A DNA stretch of 64,000 nucleotides, taken from a virus. How positions within the stretch are numbered: position 1 is the stretch's first letter; every line of letters begins with the position of its first letter. The stretch is taken from IMG/VR virus record IMGVR_UViG_3300017971_000190, positions 62,001-126,000 of that record. One strand, written 5' to 3'. Of the stretch, positions 32,857 to 62,824 are shown one piece after another. Under the pieces are notes generated by a model. It had not been told where the DNA came from. It saw only the letters and a program-made list of their open reading frames with translations, and made no database searches. The translations under genes were made by a program, and so were the position numbers.

Positions 32857-35800
32857 GTGTCTTCCCTTCCCAAAACTTACGGTCGTTTTTGGCTTAAAGA
32901 TTCTACTTGGCATGTGGCTTGTGAACCACATGTCATGATTAGATTAAAGCGTACTTTTGACAAAGTACGAAAAGACCAGTACGATGTAATTACTCTAGCA
33001 GACTCTCCAGAAACCTGCCGTGAACTTCTTTGGTTCACCCTTCGTTTTCCTCTCACTGCTATTGATGAACCCACCCAATTTTACCTGGAAGAGCAAGCTG
33101 AAAAACATGAAAGGGAGGAGAAGGAAGTACACCTGCTACTGAGCGGTGAGGTGGAACCCAAAAACTTTAAACTTCGTTTGCCTCTTCGCCCATACCAACG
33201 TATTGCCACCGATTTAGCTCTTAAAACAGGAGGATTATTAATTGCTGACGATCTCGGAACTGGAAAGACTGCTTGTATTATTGGTATGTTTACAGATCAA
33301 CGTACCAGACCAGCTTTAGTTGCTACTCTTGCACATCTCACTTATCAGTGGCAAGCTGAAATAAATCGCTTCGCTCCTGAACTTACCACTCACATAATTA
33401 AGCAGGGAAAGTTTTACCAATTTTCTAAAGACAACATTTTTCCAGATGTTCTTATAACTAGTTATTACAAGTTGCATAGTTGGGCTGAGCATTTAGCTGG
33501 AAAAATTCGTTGTGTAGCCTTTGATGAAATACAAGAACTAAGACATGGAGAAATGAGTTTAAAAGGTTCAGCATCTTTTCATATTTCTGATCAAGCATCT
33601 TTCAGAGTCGGCGCTAGCGCTACTCCATTTTATAATTACGGCGCTGAAATGTTTAATATTATGAAAGCCCTTCGTCCTGGAGTACTAGGGACTTTCTCAG
33701 AATTTGCTAGGGAGTGGCTCAGCTGGGATGGTAAAAAACTAAAAGATCCCAAAGCATTTGGAACCTATCTTCGCGATCATGGTTATATGATTCGTAGAAC
33801 CAGAGAAGATATTAGGAGAACTATTCCCACCCTTACTAAAGTTCCACATTGGATTGATTTTGATTTTGAAGCTCTCGACGCTTTAAAATCATCGGCAGAT
33901 GAATTGGCTCTTTCTATTGTTCGATATGATCCAACTATTGATGAAGAGACACAAAAAGACAAATTCGCTAGAGAAAATGAATTCAAGCAACTTTTACGAC
34001 AAGCAACTGGAATTGGAAAAGCTCCCTATGTTGCAGAATTTGTCCGCATGCTTGTGGAAACTGGTGAACAAGTAGTTGTATTTTTGTGGCACCGCGAATG
34101 TTATTCGATACTAAAAGATCGTCTTAGTGATTATAAACCATCTATGTATACAGGTTCGGAAAGTCCACAACGAAAAAGAAAACAGTTTAATCGTTTCGTG
34201 AGAAAAGAAACTCCAATATTGTTAATTTCTCTCCGCTCAGGCGCTGGACTAGACGGTCTTCAATATCATTGCCGCACTGTCGTTTTTGGAGAATTAGATT
34301 GGTCCCCCGGAGTTATGGAGCAATGCTTAACAATGGAAACAGAAATTTTAACTAAAAAAGGATTTTGCAAAGAAAATGAAGTAGAAGTTGGAGATGAAGT
34401 AGCCGCTTTTGATATAAAAGATAGTAGTATTAAATGGAAGCCAGTTCTGCATAAAGTTTGTAGAAAGTTAGGTAAAAAAGAAAAACTTTTTTACACAGAG
34501 ACGAAAAAAATGGCTTTTAAAGTTACTGGAGATCATAGACTTATTGTGCGGCGTAGTAGACGCACAATTTCAGGAGAAAATAGGTCTGATTGGAAATTTA
34601 AATTAGCAAAGGACGTAGCTGGTAAAAATAGACGATTTGTTCCTACGTGTGGTTTGGAAAAAACTATAGGTGTTGATCTCACAAGTTATGAATTAAGGTT
34701 TTTAGGGTGGTATATTTCTGACGGAAGTTTTAATGGTAATCAAGTAACCATTTACCAAGCTGCTCATCAACCTTGGAATGATGATATTGTAGAAGTTTTA
34801 AATGGTTGTGAATTTACTTGGTATAGATATGAAAGGATTAATACCAACGGTAATTTGTTATATATGTATTGTGTACCAAAAGGGAACGTACAACGTTGGA
34901 CTAAAAATGAAATAAGTACATTCATAAAAATGAAGAAAAAAGGAGTTTCTTATAAAGAAATAGAGGAAAAAATTAATAGACCTAGAAGTAGTCTTTATAA
35001 AAGGTGGGCAAAATTTAAATCGGGTTACAAATATGAATTGATTCCTCCCAAAAATCGAACTACTAAGGGTTGGGAATATTTAGAAAAATATTTAGACAAA
35101 AATTTAAGTCCACTTCTAGAAAACGTTACTCGTGAACAACTAATAAATATTATTCACGGACTTTATATGGGGGATGGTACTAAAAATGAAAGTCGTGAAA
35201 ATGTGGTAATGATTGGCGGTACTAACAAAATTCTTTTCGATCGTCTGCAATCATTATGTGTAAGACGTGGGATGTCTGCTACTATATCTACACACAAAAA
35301 ACCAAAAGATCCGAATAGAAAAATCTCACATACTATTTATATATCTAAATTTGAAGATGCTTACATACCCGGTCCTAATAAACCTAATGTATTGTCAGAA
35401 GTGGAACCAACAAAAAATGAGAAAGTTTGGTGTGTTACAAATGAATTAGGAACATTGGTTACCAGGTATAATGGTAAAGTTGCTGTAGTTGGAAATTGTA
35501 TAGGTCGGGTACATAGAGACGGACAACTAGATGACGTAACAGCTTACTTTTTGTTAGCCAATGGGGGAAGTGATCCTTACGTTTCAGAACTGTTAGGAAT
35601 TAAAAGAGCCCAAATAGAAGGCGTCAAAGATCCAGAAGGTGCCGTTCTTCCCAATTACGATTTAGATAACGTTTCTGTAAAAGAACTAGCGCTTAACTAC
35701 ATGAACCAACGACAAGAAGGAAAGGCGGTAGAAGTCATGCCAACAAACAGAAAAAATTTAGAAACTTATCCTTTGGAAAGTGAAGAGAGTAACATTAAAG

Positions 35801-36042
35801 CCTACTTAACGGACGAAATTAAAATTGAGTTGTCTGAAGGTTTAGCCAATTTTACAAAGGAGAATGATCTGCTAGATCTTATTGACAAAGAACTACTAAC
35901 AGGTTTCTTAAATTCCCTTGGTTTAAAACCCTCTAAAAAGCTGCATAAAAAATTGGTTAAAAATTTGTGCCTGTCTCTTTTAGAAGCTGCTTGTAGAGCG
36001 ACTATCAATGATCGAAAAGTAATTAAAACACATGACTTGTAG
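32857..36042 (+). CDS. SNF2/SF2-type DNA helicase interrupted by an intein
   Basis: 1061 residues from a GTG. Extein: RPYQRIATDLAL and DDLGTGKTA (motif I, 131-139), FDEIQELRHG (motif II, from 222), GASATP (motif III, 252-257), LLISLRSGAGLDGL (motif V), then the motif VI sequence EQ|CIGRVHRDGQ split by the intein. After splicing the protein is about 670 residues. SMARCAL1-like or phage SNF2 helicases move along or anneal duplex DNA. It follows a PD-(D/E)XK protein. Fold and motifs are clear; the cellular role is inferred. Confidence 0.88.
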   Translation: MSSLPKTYGRFWLKDSTWHVACEPHVMIRLKRTFDKVRKDQYDVITLADSPETCRELLWFTLRFPLTAIDEPTQFYLEEQAEKHEREEKEVHLLLSGEVEPKNFKLRLPLRPYQRIATDLALKTGGLLIADDLGTGKTACIIGMFTDQRTRPALVATLAHLTYQWQAEINRFAPELTTHIIKQGKFYQFSKDNIFPDVLITSYYKLHSWAEHLAGKIRCVAFDEIQELRHGEMSLKGSASFHISDQASFRVGASATPFYNYGAEMFNIMKALRPGVLGTFSEFAREWLSWDGKKLKDPKAFGTYLRDHGYMIRRTREDIRRTIPTLTKVPHWIDFDFEALDALKSSADELALSIVRYDPTIDEETQKDKFARENEFKQLLRQATGIGKAPYVAEFVRMLVETGEQVVVFLWHRECYSILKDRLSDYKPSMYTGSESPQRKRKQFNRFVRKETPILLISLRSGAGLDGLQYHCRTVVFGELDWSPGVMEQCLTMETEILTKKGFCKENEVEVGDEVAAFDIKDSSIKWKPVLHKVCRKLGKKEKLFYTETKKMAFKVTGDHRLIVRRSRRTISGENRSDWKFKLAKDVAGKNRRFVPTCGLEKTIGVDLTSYELRFLGWYISDGSFNGNQVTIYQAAHQPWNDDIVEVLNGCEFTWYRYERINTNGNLLYMYCVPKGNVQRWTKNEISTFIKMKKKGVSYKEIEEKINRPRSSLYKRWAKFKSGYKYELIPPKNRTTKGWEYLEKYLDKNLSPLLENVTREQLINIIHGLYMGDGTKNESRENVVMIGGTNKILFDRLQSLCVRRGMSATISTHKKPKDPNRKISHTIYISKFEDAYIPGPNKPNVLSEVEPTKNEKVWCVTNELGTLVTRYNGKVAVVGNCIGRVHRDGQLDDVTAYFLLANGGSDPYVSELLGIKRAQIEGVKDPEGAVLPNYDLDNVSVKELALNYMNQRQEGKAVEVMPTNRKNLETYPLESEESNIKAYLTDEIKIELSEGLANFTKENDLLDLIDKELLTGFLNSLGLKPSKKLHKKLVKNLCLSLLEAACRATINDRKVIKTHDL
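34324..35496 (+). mobile_element. Intein with LAGLIDADG homing endonuclease in helicase motif VI
   Basis: 391 residues in frame inside the helicase. Cys1 begins CLTMETEILT (block A), TGDH (68-71) is block B, FLGWYISDGS (126-135) and IIHGLYMGDGT (276-286) are the two LAGLIDADG helices, KNEISTFIKMKKKGVSYKEI and RPRSSLYKRW (194-228) form a helix-turn-helix-like insert, and VWCVTNELGTLVTRYNGKV then AVVGN (368-391) is blocks F and G followed by Cys+1. The penultimate residue is Gly rather than the usual His. The motif VI site QxxGRxxRxGQ is a highly conserved target, typical of intein insertion. Confidence 0.9.
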
Positions 36043-36534: not shown

Positions 36535-37134
36535 ATGGGAATCGAACAAGTTACTCCAGAGTTAGTCAAAGAATTTTGGAAAGATGCTCTCAAAAAGTTT
36601 GATGCTAAAAGTGTCGATAAAGATGATTCCACTTTTATGAAAAGTATTGCCTCTTTTTTAGACGCAATTAAAATACTGGATAAAGAAGATTTTATGGATC
36701 GATTTACCACTACTATTTTCAAAACCATTTATAGACCTTTTAAAATTGGAGATACCTCTAATTATAGTTTGTGGGGGCAAATAACTGTACTGGTCCACGA
36801 ATTAACACACGTACTTCAATTTGAAGCGAACGAAATTGAATTTACGGTTGGTTACATAACAAATGAAAGCAGTAGAGCTGCTTATGAAGCAGATGCCTAC
36901 AGTGCAGATATGGAAATGCACTATTGGATGTATGGCGAAATTTACAACATTAAAGATCGTGCTGCTAACTTAAAATACTATGGGCTAGAACAAGATGAAA
37001 TTGATTTTGCTGCTTCTGTTATGGAAAGTAACAGTCTAACAATTTTAAATAGTGACGCAGCTGTTAATGATGTAGCTGCATGGACTATGGATTGGTTAGA
37101 AGCCAAGGGTGTTACACCAGAAGTGGTGCACTAA
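36535..37134 (+). CDS. Zinc metallopeptidase-like protein (HELTH)
   Basis: 199 residues with a strong AAGGAGG site. HELTH at 88-92 inside LVHELTHVLQFE is the zincin signature; Glu118 in AAYEADAYSAD is a candidate third ligand downstream. Helical elsewhere, no signal peptide. Encoded between a lipoprotein and virion genes, so it may mature virion proteins or be carried in the particle. Substrate unknown. Confidence 0.65.
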   Translation: MGIEQVTPELVKEFWKDALKKFDAKSVDKDDSTFMKSIASFLDAIKILDKEDFMDRFTTTIFKTIYRPFKIGDTSNYSLWGQITVLVHELTHVLQFEANEIEFTVGYITNESSRAAYEADAYSADMEMHYWMYGEIYNIKDRAANLKYYGLEQDEIDFAASVMESNSLTILNSDAAVNDVAAWTMDWLEAKGVTPEVVH

Positions 37135-43669: not shown

Positions 43670-44968
43670 ATGGCAGGCAAATTCCGATTTCAATCCGGCA
43701 ACAAATTCTCCCATACCCACTACGCAGATCCCGATAAGTTCAATTCTAAAAAAACGCCGGGGAAACAAAAACTAAACGCCAATCGTGCGTTGATCAATAA
43801 AAGTGTACGCTTTATCAAGAAGGCTATTGAAAAATTGGAAAAATTGGAGAAAAAATTTGAAGCTACTCTTGCATCTCCCTATGTCGCAAAAACCCAATTT
43901 AAAAAACTGCATGAAGTTAAAAATGATTTGATGATGGCTAAAGCCACACTTCAAGATGTAAGTGTGAGGCCAGTAAAAAAGACTACGGCTAAATTGGAAA
44001 ATTTAAGCATGCAGCTCAAAGAGCTGATTCCACGAATTAAAAAATCTCCCCTCTTTGCCAATGAATTGGTAATTTCCTCTAGTAAAAAAGTTAAAAAAGA
44101 AGCTGCTTTACCCCTTATCAAGACTACTATCAAAAAATTGAAAAAGAGTGTCGTTTCACTAGAAAAAAGAATTGACTCAATAACCAAACAAATGGATAAC
44201 ATTAAAAGATCTCCTAAAAAAGAAACAGATGACTTAGTTGCTTCAGTAGAAGAAGATGAAAAGGATAAATCGAAACAACTCACTCCCCAGTTCGTTGACG
44301 ACTTTTTTAAAACGGCTGCAGAAAGAGGGTGGACAGTCAACACAGACGTCAAAGAAATTTTCAACAAGCCTCAACCGACTAAAGTAGTGAGAAATTTGGA
44401 TGAAGGGATGGAAGTAATCAAAAATGTTTCCCTTCCTAAGTCCAACCTTTTAACTGAAGAAACCCCAATTGGTCTACTAGAATTTCCTATCATACTAGTG
44501 CAAAAAAGACGTTTTTCTGAACGGTTGATTAAAGAAATTCTGAAACTTAATTTAGGATATGAAATTCATATTGTACTGGGCGGTTACTTAGTAATTACAG
44601 GCGCTCTGCTTATGGGAATCCACCGCTCTATGATTAGGGTCTATAACAATGCTTCTCTTAAAGATCCATCAACATATTGGAATCGAGAAGTCTCTTTATT
44701 TAAGAAAACAAAAGTAGAAAAAACTAAAAAAGACCAGCTCAAAATTAAAATAGATACATCTAAATTTGCAAAACTTGTTCCTTTTTTGCAAGAGGAAAAT
44801 CCTCGTTACGAAGAAATACTTAATAAAGCTAGACCCACCAATCCAGCCACCCTTTTTGGCACTCATTATTATTGTCCTCTCTTTCCTCAAGGAACAGAGT
44901 CTATTAATATTATCAGCATTGATAATTGGTCCCCTTTGTTCCAGAAATCAGAAACCACAAAAGCCTAA
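43670..44968 (+). CDS. Coiled-coil virion-module protein
   Basis: 432 residues. Residues 35-200 are Lys/Glu/Leu-rich coiled coil (FIKKAIEKLEKLEKKFEATL); 205-430 form an alpha/beta domain with a hydrophobic hairpin (IHIVLGGYLVITGALLMGI) that may be membrane-active. Lies between tube and chaperone genes. No family recognised. The 123-bp gap before it shows no clear promoter. Confidence 0.5.
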   Translation: MAGKFRFQSGNKFSHTHYADPDKFNSKKTPGKQKLNANRALINKSVRFIKKAIEKLEKLEKKFEATLASPYVAKTQFKKLHEVKNDLMMAKATLQDVSVRPVKKTTAKLENLSMQLKELIPRIKKSPLFANELVISSSKKVKKEAALPLIKTTIKKLKKSVVSLEKRIDSITKQMDNIKRSPKKETDDLVASVEEDEKDKSKQLTPQFVDDFFKTAAERGWTVNTDVKEIFNKPQPTKVVRNLDEGMEVIKNVSLPKSNLLTEETPIGLLEFPIILVQKRRFSERLIKEILKLNLGYEIHIVLGGYLVITGALLMGIHRSMIRVYNNASLKDPSTYWNREVSLFKKTKVEKTKKDQLKIKIDTSKFAKLVPFLQEENPRYEEILNKARPTNPATLFGTHYYCPLFPQGTESINIISIDNWSPLFQKSETTKA

Positions 44969-44982
44969 GGAAATTAAATATC

Positions 44983-46320
44983 ATGGGAACTCAAAAAACA
45001 GGTAAAGGCGGAACTACTCAACCTCCTAAGCAGGTAGGACCGAAAAATAAATGGGAAAATACTACTAAAGATGAAGATATTATTGATGCTAGACAAGCAG
45101 CTACCAGTCCTCCTGAAGAAGATTTAGGTTTGCGAGCTGATGAGGCTTTTGAACCAGACCCACATGGTTTTGAACCTTCTTCTCAAAGAGTAGAAGAAAA
45201 TGCAGGTCGCAGTATGATTCCTCTGAAAGGAGAGGATTTATCTACTCTTCATAAAATGCATGCTCCTGGAGAATCTATGGTTCCAGATCCTCATAAAGAA
45301 ATGAGTGATCGTCATTTAGATCCTAATTCTTCAGCTTTTAATGATGAGAAATTTGATGATGAAGAGGTTTTAGCTAAATCAGTTCCTCGTCATATTCAAG
45401 CAGATCAAGTTGCAGATGATTTACTGGGAGATTTTTCTCCAAGTGCAGATCTAGAAGAGGCTTACCAACAGCAACGTCGTCCATCGTCTAAACCACACAA
45501 TCAAATTGAAAAAGAGGTCCCTCAAGATCCTGCTATGGCAGCCAACGCTGGGAATATGGAAGAAGCTGCTCGTATTTTAGAAGCACTAATTAGAAAAGCA
45601 AACAAAGCCAGAGGAGAAGGTGATTTAAAAACTGCTGCTGAGTTAACTACTATTGCTCAGAAAATAGTAGCAAGTTCACAATTAAAGAGACAACAGACCA
45701 AAAAAGAACGTCATCCGGCTCTGAAGAAACTACTCAACAATTTAGGATTGGAAAAGATTCAACATACAGATATTGAGTGGTTAGGATCTAAATGGCGTTT
45801 CGCTGCTAGACCAGCTCCTCTTGACTACTGGTTAGGAGCTAATACCGGACCTGAAGGATTAGAGCTAAATGCTGCTATTGTAGCAGCTGGATTAGTTGGC
45901 TTAGACGATGAAGAAGGGGTTATGCACCCAATTTGGGAAGTTCATAATATTTCTCTTTCCGCACATTATGAATTTGAGGTTCCAGGGCCAGATGAAAATT
46001 TACCACCTGTTACGGAAGATGTTGACATTCCTGTTTATCACAAAATGTGTGAGAGTTGTTCTGTAGAAATACCTGTTGAAAGTGAGGCGTGTGAAGTTTG
46101 TGGAGCAGCTGTAGATCTTTACGATTTACCTGTAGATTTGCGTATTCGTTGTGCTGAAGCCTCTTTTAAACTATTAACCGAGAAGCTTTGTTTAGATGCT
46201 CTTGATTTAAGTGATTTAGTGACTAAATATAGAGAAGCAATGCCAGACCGAAAATTTGATAAGGAGGAAGTGTTCCCTTTCGTGAAACTCTTGCCGAAGC
46301 GGAGCGAGATGGGGATGTAG
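44983..46320 (+). CDS. Tail-assembly chaperone, zero-frame product
   Basis: 445 residues from the ATG at 44983. The N-terminal 170 residues are Pro/Asp/Glu-rich and probably disordered; residues 190-240 are a helix pair; CESC...CEVC (about 367-384) is a zinc ribbon. The position just before the tape-measure gene and the overlapping -1 frame match the G/GT chaperone pairs of tailed phages. It is far longer than usual. Most ribosomes would stop at the TAG at 46318. Confidence 0.6.
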   Translation: MGTQKTGKGGTTQPPKQVGPKNKWENTTKDEDIIDARQAATSPPEEDLGLRADEAFEPDPHGFEPSSQRVEENAGRSMIPLKGEDLSTLHKMHAPGESMVPDPHKEMSDRHLDPNSSAFNDEKFDDEEVLAKSVPRHIQADQVADDLLGDFSPSADLEEAYQQQRRPSSKPHNQIEKEVPQDPAMAANAGNMEEAARILEALIRKANKARGEGDLKTAAELTTIAQKIVASSQLKRQQTKKERHPALKKLLNNLGLEKIQHTDIEWLGSKWRFAARPAPLDYWLGANTGPEGLELNAAIVAAGLVGLDDEEGVMHPIWEVHNISLSAHYEFEVPGPDENLPPVTEDVDIPVYHKMCESCSVEIPVESEACEVCGAAVDLYDLPVDLRIRCAEASFKLLTEKLCLDALDLSDLVTKYREAMPDRKFDKEEVFPFVKLLPKRSEMGM

Positions 46321-46754
46321 AAGCTTTTGGCAGGGTTTTAGTTCACACGGGTATACTTCCAACAGAGGAGAAAGCTAAAAAACTGTGGCATAATAAAAGC
46401 GCTCTCTACATGATGGATTATTGGATTTCCAAAAAAGAGCAACAATCGAAACAAATGTTAGGAGAGGTACTTGGAGTATATTGGGATGAAGACAGCTTAG
46501 AAGCTATTTTAAGAGAGCCTGATTTACGCGATTATAAAAATAGAAGTAAACAAAAGAATTTCTTCTGGCCAATGCTATTGGCGTTGAAACCAGAATTCCT
46601 TGATATACTTAGAAAATCTACAGGTCGTAAATTTGGTATTAATTCTCCAGAATGGGCTAGAGATGAGGAAAACTTTGTTGACATGTTCGATTGGAAAACG
46701 GAAGACTTCGTACAATTTGTTGGGGCAGCTGTAATGCCTCGTGTGAAAAAATAA
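46263..46754 (+). CDS. -1 frame extension of the tail-assembly chaperone (fusion product)
   Basis: This frame is open from 46263 and reads through as RETLAEAERDGDVEAFGR...LYMMDYWISKKEQQSKQ without a standard start before 46410. A -1 slip at CCCTTTC would add 157 residues to the first 433 of the upstream gene, giving a roughly 590-residue product, join(44983..46281,46281..46754). The segment is helical and Trp-rich, as in T domains that recruit the tape-measure protein. Independent initiation at the ATG at 46410 is the alternative, but there is no ribosome site before it. Confidence 0.7.
   Translation, partial: GGSVPFRETLAEAERDGDVEAFGRVLVHTGILPTEEKAKKLWHNKSALYMMDYWISKKEQQSKQMLGEVLGVYWDEDSLEAILREPDLRDYKNRSKQKNFFWPMLLALKPEFLDILRKSTGRKFGINSPEWARDEENFVDMFDWKTEDFVQFVGAAVMPRVKK
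46275..46281 (+). promoter_or_regulatory. -1 ribosomal frameshift site CCCTTTC
   Basis: The heptamer C-CCT-TTC is exactly in phase with the zero frame (CCT at 46276, TTC at 46279), the canonical X XXY YYZ form. It lies within the overlap 46263-46320 where both frames are open. About ten bases downstream, TGCCGAAGC (46292-46300) can pair with GCTTTTGGCA (46333-46342, one bulge), a possible stimulatory stem-loop. Confidence 0.75.
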
Positions 46755-50768: not shown

Positions 50769-51338
50769 ATGCCACAACACATTTGTTTTATTCACCAAAG
50801 TAACGGCCCCATTGACGTTGTCTTTCTCCACGAGCACCACAGAACCCCCAGAGCTTTTGGAGGTACCGACGATGAAGACAACCTAATTTGGTTGTGTGTA
50901 CCTTGTCACGATTTACTACACCGTACTGCTGTCATGTCCATGCATGGTAAGCGTGGTTTAGTAGATGATGTCATTGATCAGTATCTTCCGGGGGATTTAA
51001 ACGCCCAACAAAAATTTAAAACTCTGCTTCATGAGGTAATTCAAGCTAAGACCGCCTTCATGGAAAAAGCAGAAGACCCTGAAGACACTGTACTCATGAA
51101 TCTTAAAATACCCAAACAAGTTCATAGTGTACTTAAAACATGCTCCATGGATCATCAACATCCTAATGGAAGAAATATGGGGTTGTACGCCTTCACTACT
51201 AAAATACTCACACAATTTGCTTTGAATCAGCTTTTTGGAGAATCCTCAGCTCCTCCCCCTCCCGGCTCTGGTGTTCAGGCACCTCCGTCTACTTTGAAAA
51301 AAGAAGCTGTTATGGCTGACTTGGTTAAATTTAAATAA
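50769..51338 (+). CDS. HNH endonuclease
   Basis: 189 residues, starting 30 bases after the terminator. HEHHRTPRAFGGTDDEDN (21-38) and LIWLCVPCHDLLHR (39-52) form a classical HNH site: His23/His24, Asn38 and His47/His51, with one Cys pair. A helical domain and Pro/Gly-rich linker follow. Free-standing HNH proteins in phages act as homing endonucleases or assist packaging. A TTTGTAAAA box at 50750-50758 lies just before the gene. Confidence 0.78.
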   Translation: MPQHICFIHQSNGPIDVVFLHEHHRTPRAFGGTDDEDNLIWLCVPCHDLLHRTAVMSMHGKRGLVDDVIDQYLPGDLNAQQKFKTLLHEVIQAKTAFMEKAEDPEDTVLMNLKIPKQVHSVLKTCSMDHQHPNGRNMGLYAFTTKILTQFALNQLFGESSAPPPPGSGVQAPPSTLKKEAVMADLVKFK

Positions 51339-57842: not shown

Positions 57843-58538
57843 ATGACAACTTCCAGACGCACGTTTTTCAAGGTAGCTGGAGCTGCACTGGTAGGCTCTC
57901 AACTCAGTAGATATGGCAAAGCAATTTCCAAACCAAAAGGACAGTTGGTGAGCCCTGGTACTTATATTGAAGCTAAACCATATGATGGTGATGGTGTTTA
58001 TCTACCTAACCAAAGAACTTGGGGTAGTAAAAATGTTACTACAATTGCTTGTCGTCGCGTAATTTTTTTGGACAAGGGAGAACCAATTGACTGCCTTCCT
58101 AAAGTAGGAACGGTTGTTTCTTCTCCAGACGGCAAGTATCTTTTTACTGTACCTGAACAAGCAGATGTACTACCCATTATTCCTCACACTACTGGTCCTT
58201 GGGATGAAAAAACCTTCGGAGCTGTTCCAGGAATTACTTACAAGGGTGTTAGTATGGTAGTAGAAGCAATTGTGCCTGGTACTGAATACAGTTCCTGTTC
58301 GATTAGAACCGTAACCACTCCCAGTGCTGCCAAACATTTCTCTGTTTGTGAGGATTGGCGAGCCCCTTATAGAGGTGGCATTTGGTCTAAAAGTTATGAA
58401 TCTGGATGTACAGGTGGGTTGGCTTTTGATGCCCTTTATCCTGAATATACTCATGAGTATTTCAGAGCATCTAAAGAAATTCTCAATTCTAAATTAGTTT
58501 ACGATAACGATAAAGGCATTGTCATTTTGCAAAAGTAG
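57843..58538 (+). CDS. Tat-exported protein with FLDKGEPID module
   Basis: 231 residues with AAGGAGG upstream. SRRTFFK (4-10) followed by VAGAALVGSQL is a textbook twin-arginine signal. The mature part is beta-rich; TIACRRVIFLDKGEPIDC (about 66-83) aligns with the LLND.GKT.D module in the proteins at 27188 and 28431. Export through Tat means the protein folds in the cytoplasm before crossing the membrane. Possible roles: surface exclusion or envelope modification. Tat signals are rare in phage proteins. Confidence 0.65.
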   Translation: MTTSRRTFFKVAGAALVGSQLSRYGKAISKPKGQLVSPGTYIEAKPYDGDGVYLPNQRTWGSKNVTTIACRRVIFLDKGEPIDCLPKVGTVVSSPDGKYLFTVPEQADVLPIIPHTTGPWDEKTFGAVPGITYKGVSMVVEAIVPGTEYSSCSIRTVTTPSAAKHFSVCEDWRAPYRGGIWSKSYESGCTGGLAFDALYPEYTHEYFRASKEILNSKLVYDNDKGIVILQK

Positions 58539-62069: not shown

Positions 62070-62249
62070 ATGCCTGTGCCACAACCAAAAACAAAATGGA
62101 GACCTCTTCACCTTTTTACTCGTAATATGACATGTTGGTACTATAGAAAACTTAACTCAGAAATATTTGACCCTATGTTTCAATTGTGGCAGAGATATCA
62201 AAATAAAGTTGAAAAACTGATGATTTTAGGACAGTTAAATTTAAAATGA
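62070..62249 (+). CDS. 59-residue basic hypothetical protein
   Basis: ATG at 62070, TGA at 62247-62249 overlapping the next ATG (ATGA). MPVPQPKTKWRPLHLFTRN, then Trp/Tyr-rich helices. Fills the gap exactly with coupled ends, so it is very probably real. Confidence 0.55.
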   Translation: MPVPQPKTKWRPLHLFTRNMTCWYYRKLNSEIFDPMFQLWQRYQNKVEKLMILGQLNLK

Positions 62250-62824
62250 CGTGTATTATAGGTCTTAAAAAAGACCAGCATATTTATATAGGAGGAGATA
62301 GCTGTGGATCTGATCAGTTTAGTTACAGAGATTGTTATTTAGACCGTAAAGTTTGGAAAATAGGAGATCAATTTATTTTTGGTGGATCTGGAAGTTACCG
62401 CGCTATCCAAATATTAAAAACATATCTTCCTTATGACAAATCATTCTTAAGCAAAAGTAAAAACTGGAAAAAATTACCAAGTACATTTATGATTAGACAT
62501 TTTATTCCGACTATCAAGAAATTGTTTGAACAACATGATTTTTCGCAAAAGAAAGATGAAAAATCTGAACAGAGTGCTAATCTTTGTATAGGTTTCAAAA
62601 ACGGTTTGTTTTTATTTGGGGATGAATATGATATTTTAGAAATAAAGTCTTTTTGTACCATTGGAAGTGGCTATCAGTTATCTCAAGGTGCTATGTCCGT
62701 TTTAATTGAAGACAAAAATTTAACACCCCAACAAATGATTAAAAAAGCGCTAACAGTAACAGCCAGGCACATGGGTTCGGTTACTCCTCCATTTCATATT
62801 GTGAATATGAAGAATGTAAAATAA
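62246..62824 (+). CDS. Proteasome-beta/HslV-like Ntn hydrolase
   Basis: 192 residues, ATGA overlap. MTCIIGL with Thr as residue 1 after Met removal, GGDSCGSD placing Asp at mature position 17, and DRKVWKIG giving Lys34 (usually Lys33) reproduce the proteasome active-site spacing. GGSGSYRAIQIL, then NGLFLFGDEYDILEI and IGSGYQLSQGAMSVL follow the HslV/beta-subunit strand order. Related proteins in phages have been annotated as proteasome-like, without known substrates. No ATPase unfoldase partner is visible. Confidence 0.75.
   Translation: MTCIIGLKKDQHIYIGGDSCGSDQFSYRDCYLDRKVWKIGDQFIFGGSGSYRAIQILKTYLPYDKSFLSKSKNWKKLPSTFMIRHFIPTIKKLFEQHDFSQKKDEKSEQSANLCIGFKNGLFLFGDEYDILEIKSFCTIGSGYQLSQGAMSVLIEDKNLTPQQMIKKALTVTARHMGSVTPPFHIVNMKNVK

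Follow-up and report, generated by a model that had tools for sequence, protein, structure and literature searches.

Judged from its own sequence and those of its relatives, a large phage whose tail is predicted to be contractile, as it carries a sheath gene, very probably makes two forms of its tail assembly chaperone through programmed -1 frameshifting, in the manner of lambda G/GT, at a site just before the tape-measure gene. Two results carry this reading. A slippery heptamer is conserved in phase in the overlap of two reading frames, and the product of the -1 frame is conserved from the heptamer onward with no nearer start codon. Together they make -1 frameshifting by far the best reading, and they support the G/GT-type frameshift that an earlier note on this DNA had proposed at this place.

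The window, by which we mean the whole 64,000-nt stretch of DNA that was analysed (positions 62001-126000 of a 221,679-bp IMG/VR virus record), contains a zero-frame gene for a G-type chaperone and, in the -1 frame relative to it, a second open reading frame (ORF) for the T-type region (Table 1). Both frames are open over 55 nt, from 46263 to 46317 (58 nt counting the stop codon), and CCCTTTC is the sole in-phase heptamer of the form XXXYYYZ in this overlap. The earlier note had given the range 46263-46754 and a 58-base stretch with both frames open and had placed CCCTTTC in zero-frame phase within that stretch, and the ORF check bore out both statements. The junction peptide it had foreseen, VFPF followed by RETLAEA, agrees with the predicted translation, in which the fusion junction, of the EEVFPFRETLAEAER type, reads ...EEVFPF-RETLAEAE.... 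A start codon scan of the -1 frame of the window found no ATG, GTG or TTG upstream of position 46410, which lies 135 nt, or 45 codons, past the heptamer.

Table 1. Coordinates of the features discussed, in window positions unless a locus or contig is named.
Feature	Position	Strand	Remark
Tail tube protein, 184 aa	42992..43546	+	Homologues in Rctr197k, L023, L024, L026-L033
Zero-frame ORF, putative G-type tail assembly chaperone, 445 aa	44983..46320	+	ATG 44983, stop TAG 46318-46320
N-terminal extension of G, ~243 aa, mostly disordered	44983..45711	+	Low pLDDT over most of its length
Short conserved motif GRsMiPlkgEDLstlHkMhApgesM in the extension	45178..45282	+	Residues ~66-100
Predicted helical hairpin, residues 183-230, before the chaperone core	45529..45672	+	AlphaFold
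Putative zinc ribbon CxxC...CxxCG, insertion within the chaperone core	46039..46113	+	Sub-threshold Pfam matches
AAGGAGG, Shine-Dalgarno-like, candidate stimulator	46261..46267	+	7 nt before the heptamer
-1 frame (T-type) region	46263..46754	+	Opens after TAA 46260-46262
Slippery heptamer CCCTTTC	46275-46281	+	C CCT TTC in frame 0, CCC TTT C in frame -1
T part as it would be expressed, 159 aa	46275-46751	+	C-terminal portion of the predicted 590-aa G-T fusion
Possible downstream stem-loop, weak	46286..46337	+	MFE -14.1 kcal/mol
Tape-measure protein, 920 aa	46773..49535	+	Homologues at the same place in L026, L027, L028
Shared stem in relatives	L030 12339-12391; L032 12553-12605; L033 12336-12388		
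T region of L024 (L034)	Contig IMGVR_UViG_3300029267_004162, ~77.5-79.0 kb	-	

Relatives were gathered through similarity of their tail-tube or sheath genes; the heptamer played no part in the selection, so the sample is unbiased toward the frameshift site. From GenBank, the sheath search brought a single relative, Virus Rctr197k (29% identity), whose tube is homologous too. The tube alignment yielded the loci L023, L024 and L025 and, after L023 and L024 had been added to it, L026-L033. Searches of IMG/VR viral contigs with the T product, the sheath, the large terminase and the major capsid protein gave no close relatives, phage records held no match for the window's tape measure or T product, and the tube search of genome contigs gave no match. 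In the terminase-related jumbo phages (PaBG, Motura, RHph_N46, BcepSaruman and others), a homologous sheath or T domain was undetectable, and they were left out of the comparison; the tail region of PaBG was inspected for comparison and set aside as not comparable. Ten distinct loci were retained, namely the window, L026, L027, L028 (to which L029 is identical), L030, L032, L033, L023, Rctr197k (L011) and L025. L031, whose contig stops short of the G/T region, was left out of the heptamer count.

The window and its relatives keep their genes in the order sheath - tube - G - T - tape measure. The window's tube protein, which has a weak match with virion-structural PHROGs, shares 34% identity with the tube-like protein of Rctr197k and 46-66% with the tube genes of L023, L024 and L026-L033. 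Its tape measure matches the proteins at the same position in L026, L027 and L028 (E 5e-66 to 2e-36), and in L025 the protein at that position gave a match (E 2.3e-4) with the PHROG 'tail length tape measure protein'. The G/T pair lies between these two genes in the window, with one extra gene (43670-44968) between tube and G, which encodes a lysine-rich, coiled-coil-like protein of 432 aa; ORFs of ~200-400 aa stand at the tube-G position in L023, L026-L028, L030 and L032, and none in Rctr197k or L025. An HNH-like gene (50769-51338; Pfam HNH, E 4e-7) follows the tape measure, as do HNH-like genes recognised by eye in L026 (16675-17247), L027 (~16875), L028 (16689-17309), L023 (19501-19959) and L033 (15779-16276). 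Just ahead of the tail-structure genes, 36535-37134 may encode a metallopeptidase (weak DUF6782 match). Elsewhere in the window, an SNF2-type helicase gene (32857-36042) carries an in-frame Hint/LAGLIDADG intein-like insertion (Pfam SNF2, LAGLIDADG_3 and Hint) that runs from MEQ/CLTMETEIL to VVGN/CIGRVHRDGQ in helicase motif VI, with boundaries set by eye. A 192-aa protein (62246-62824) has a weak, just sub-threshold match to a proteasome-type hydrolase (Pfam Proteasome, E 2.6e-4), and the N-terminus of a 231-aa protein without a Pfam match (57843-58538), MTTSRRTFFKVAGAALVGS, resembles a twin-arginine export signal.

In 10/10 distinct phages with a G/T ORF pair, the window and nine distinct relatives, the overlap holds an in-phase CCCTTT with A, C or G as the seventh base, so that the search for a conserved heptamer suggested by the earlier note had a positive outcome. 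The heptamer is CCCTTTC in the window, CCCTTTA in L026, L027, L028 (and the identical L029), L023, L025 and Rctr197k, and CCCTTTG in L030, L032 and L033. The proteins of these relatives are 13-37% identical to those of the window, and the six bases CCCTTT are invariant in all ten loci. Nine of the ten overlaps hold no in-phase XXXYYYZ other than CCCTTTN; that of L027 has AAAAAAC as well. Overlap length varies from 13 to 163 nt across the loci, and the heptamer lies inside the overlap even in L023, L030 and L032, where the overlap spans just 13-22 nt. With in-phase CCCTTTN at a background frequency of 2.3e-4 per codon across the loci, ~0.004 heptamers are expected in the window's overlap (0.001-0.013 per overlap across the loci). 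The naive joint probability of ten in-phase heptamers, ~1e-24, ignores kinship and is too strong a figure because the loci have common ancestry.

The product of the -1 frame is conserved as well. T of the window shares 34-37% identity with T of L026, L027 and L028 (E 1e-30 to 1e-35), and the region is also conserved in L030, L032, L033 and L023; searches with the window's T gave no direct match to any named chaperone family. The aligned -1-frame proteins begin with a shared PF, encoded by CCC TTT, and their homology runs from the heptamer onward. The window's T aligns with L028 and L027 starting at residue 2, and with L026 starting at residue 4.

These alignments bear on the idea that T is a separate protein, translated by coupling to the termination of G from a start of its own (the ATG at 46410 or an unusual one further upstream), and that the heptamer is coincidental. 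We consider this very improbable. Initiation at 46410, the first start codon available in the window's -1 frame, would drop ~45 conserved residues, which favours fusion over separate initiation. The AAGGAGG ahead of the heptamer could in principle act in initiation, but no T-frame start codon follows it at a usable spacing, and a coincidental heptamer would have been kept in phase in ten distinct phages. An argument for an own start comes from L024. Its T domain (hhalign P 1.2e-7) lies in a 323-aa ORF on a 262-kb contig, the GTG start of this ORF overlaps the preceding stop (GTGA), and no CCCTTT occurs within the 3.3-kb stretch. As L024 has a T homologue without CCCTTT, the slip is not universal. 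The similarity of the ORF upstream of T to G was undetectable, and the T-containing ORF, considered as a possible G+T fusion, was confirmed for its T part and had an N-terminal part without detectable G homology. The earlier note had named, as evidence against its reading, relatives whose second frame has a standard start codon and which lack a conserved slippery site. L024 is one such case, whereas the nine distinct relatives support the reading. Frameshifting seems to have been lost or replaced in L024, which, apparently lacking the slip, offers a natural comparison.

A change of frame by another route, whether at a different slip site, in a different direction or through transcriptional slippage, has a parallel in phage 9g, where a -2 shift takes place at CCCUUUUUUU in the tail chaperone genes (PMC4276943). 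For the present family it is even less probable than an own start: T is in the -1 frame in every locus, the overlap of the window holds no long homopolymer runs on which a polymerase could slip, and CCCTTTN, the sole in-phase XXXYYYZ in 9/10 overlaps, stands where the conserved T region begins. An assembly error or a decayed gene, in which a one-base deletion broke a single long gene, might come to mind for a metagenomic virus record, where indels occur, and is refuted to the point of being negligible by ten distinct contigs, including that of Rctr197k in GenBank, with the same -1 arrangement and heptamer.

For programmed -1 frameshifting, we infer the following course in cells from the ORFs, the heptamer and their conservation, which were computed here. 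Most ribosomes would translate the 445-aa G through to the stop at 46318. A minority would pause at C CCT TTC, where tRNA-Pro would occupy the P site and tRNA-Phe the A site; both tRNAs would slip one base back and re-pair (CCU to CCC and UUC to UUU), and the slipped ribosomes would produce the 590-aa G-T fusion. On the lambda model, G would coat the tape-measure protein, encoded directly downstream, and the fusion's T part would recruit tail-tube subunits, so that the slip rate would set the G:GT ratio that assembly needs. The AAGGAGG located 7 nt ahead of the heptamer probably helps the slip in the window.

The duplex of this AAGGAGG with the anti-Shine-Dalgarno sequence has a free energy of -12.2 kcal/mol, and 0.2% of nearby positions are as good. 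L027 has AAGGAGG at the same spacing as the window (0.9% of nearby positions as good) and L032 has a strong Shine-Dalgarno-like site (1.5%), the remaining loci being weaker. The stem-loop that the earlier note had noticed about ten bases on can be drawn, but it is at chance level: compared with 200 shuffles its z is -0.05, 87/200 fold equally well, and the window's clade (L026-L028) has no shared stem downstream of the heptamer. We infer that AAGGAGG is likelier than the stem-loop to be the stimulator in the window. L030, L032 and L033 have a common 10-bp stem 6-7 nt past CCCTTTG, with one compensatory change from A-U to U-A and z values against shuffles of -3.6, -2.6 and -2.1, respectively; this stem is a better stimulator candidate than the window's stem-loop. 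A strong stem was also found in L025 (z -4.6). Different members seem to use different stimulators.

The assignment of the zero-frame protein as a chaperone draws on its position and on its relatives. G of the window shares 30-32% identity with the zero-frame proteins at the same position in L026, L027 and L028 (E 1e-47 to 6e-55). The G core of this clade aligns by profile with that of L025, Rctr197k and Eggerthella phage LE2-3, a moderate link (hhalign prob 85%, P 6e-6) to a set in which LE2-3 is the member annotated as 'tail assembly chaperone'. Pfam and PHROG searches gave no chaperone match for the window's G, no direct match to a named chaperone family was found, and the structure models, which were of low confidence, gave no useful fold match for a chaperone.

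The window's chaperone is roughly three times as large as is usual, and the relatives' lengths uphold the earlier remark that a zero-frame chaperone of 445 aa is unusually long. Zero-frame lengths are 445, 449, 413 and 421 aa in the clade of the window, L026, L027 and L028, and 300 aa in L030, 288 in L032, 304 in L033, 230 in L023, 185 in Rctr197k and 160 in L025. With 413-449 aa across the clade, the window's G is ordinary for its clade and unusual among tail chaperones. Homologous N-terminal extensions are present in L026-L028 and are shorter or absent in the other relatives; the stretch of this phage's genome that was examined holds no paralogue of the extension. Its conserved motif aligns as GR..xP(l/v)..xDL..xH.m.AG...M in L026, L027 and L028 and has a local pLDDT of ~80, and the hairpin that precedes the core is predicted by AlphaFold as helices 183-211 and 215-230 (pLDDT ~70-85).

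The putative zinc ribbon, which reads CESC...CEVCG in the window, scores below the cut-offs for DZR and Zn_Ribbon_1, the latter with a sub-threshold match in 4/9 members, and its region is modelled as a small zinc finger in the predicted structure. Four cysteines (CxxC or CxC, then CxxCG) occur only in the window, L026, L027 and L028. The region is missing in L030, L032, L033 and L023, and more distant relatives are without the ribbon; its place in a gap of the alignment points to an insertion into the chaperone core.

The earlier note had suggested that chaperone function may be merged with something else. The extra length does correspond to additions, the extension and the ribbon, found throughout the clade, but Pfam and PHROG scans recognised no second domain in G, enzymatic or otherwise, beyond the sub-threshold ribbon. 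Our best guess is that extension and ribbon are clade-specific additions that provide extra binding surface for the tape measure, tube or sheath. More tentatively, and with the odds rather against it, they might bind a further partner (the sheath, the baseplate or several tape-measure sites), making the protein a two-part assembly factor in this clade; one frameshifted gene would then couple tube assembly to another assembly step. A partial literature search turned up no description of a long or zinc-binding tail chaperone.

In lambda, the slippery heptamer is GGGAAAG and G is ~140 aa long. The window resembles lambda gpG/gpGT in having overlapping ORFs with T in the -1 frame, an in-phase heptamer of the form X XXY YYZ shortly before the first ORF ends, no proper start for T, and the pair directly upstream of the tape-measure gene (gpH in lambda). 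Unlike lambda, it has a predicted contractile tail, the heptamer CCCTTTC, and a 445-aa G with a disordered extension and a putative zinc ribbon. The -1 G/GT frameshift of lambda, which gives a G:GT ratio near 30:1, is widely conserved in long-tailed phages, and its mechanism has been reviewed (PMC5009743). Rctr197k (KX853510.1) shares with the window the homologous sheath and tube, the gene order and an in-phase heptamer, CCCTTTA, in the overlap, whereas its G has neither zinc ribbon nor long extension; its annotation enters the two frames as separate hypothetical proteins. In LE2-3 (LE23_86/87), a G-like protein aligns with G of L025 (tblastn E 0.09, 30%), and its gene is followed by a -1-frame ORF and then by a long tape-measure-like gene. 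This 112-kb phage differs from the window in its in-phase heptamer, AAAAAAA, and in its G, which has 134 aa and no extension. P2-like phages also have a -1 frameshift between tail genes just ahead of the tape measure, E/E+E' (PMC3931495), which slips on a T6G/T7G run, whereas the window's family uses CCCTTTN. The mechanism is standard; the architecture of the chaperone and the group of phages depart from what is known.

The predicted frameshift extends the G/GT recoding rule to large, predicted contractile-tailed phages that have been little studied and are known almost only from metagenomes, with CCCTTTN as the slippery sequence retained across highly divergent proteins. A tail chaperone can apparently triple in length and gain a zinc ribbon, yet retain its recoding site, and the binding partner of the added part becomes a directly testable question.
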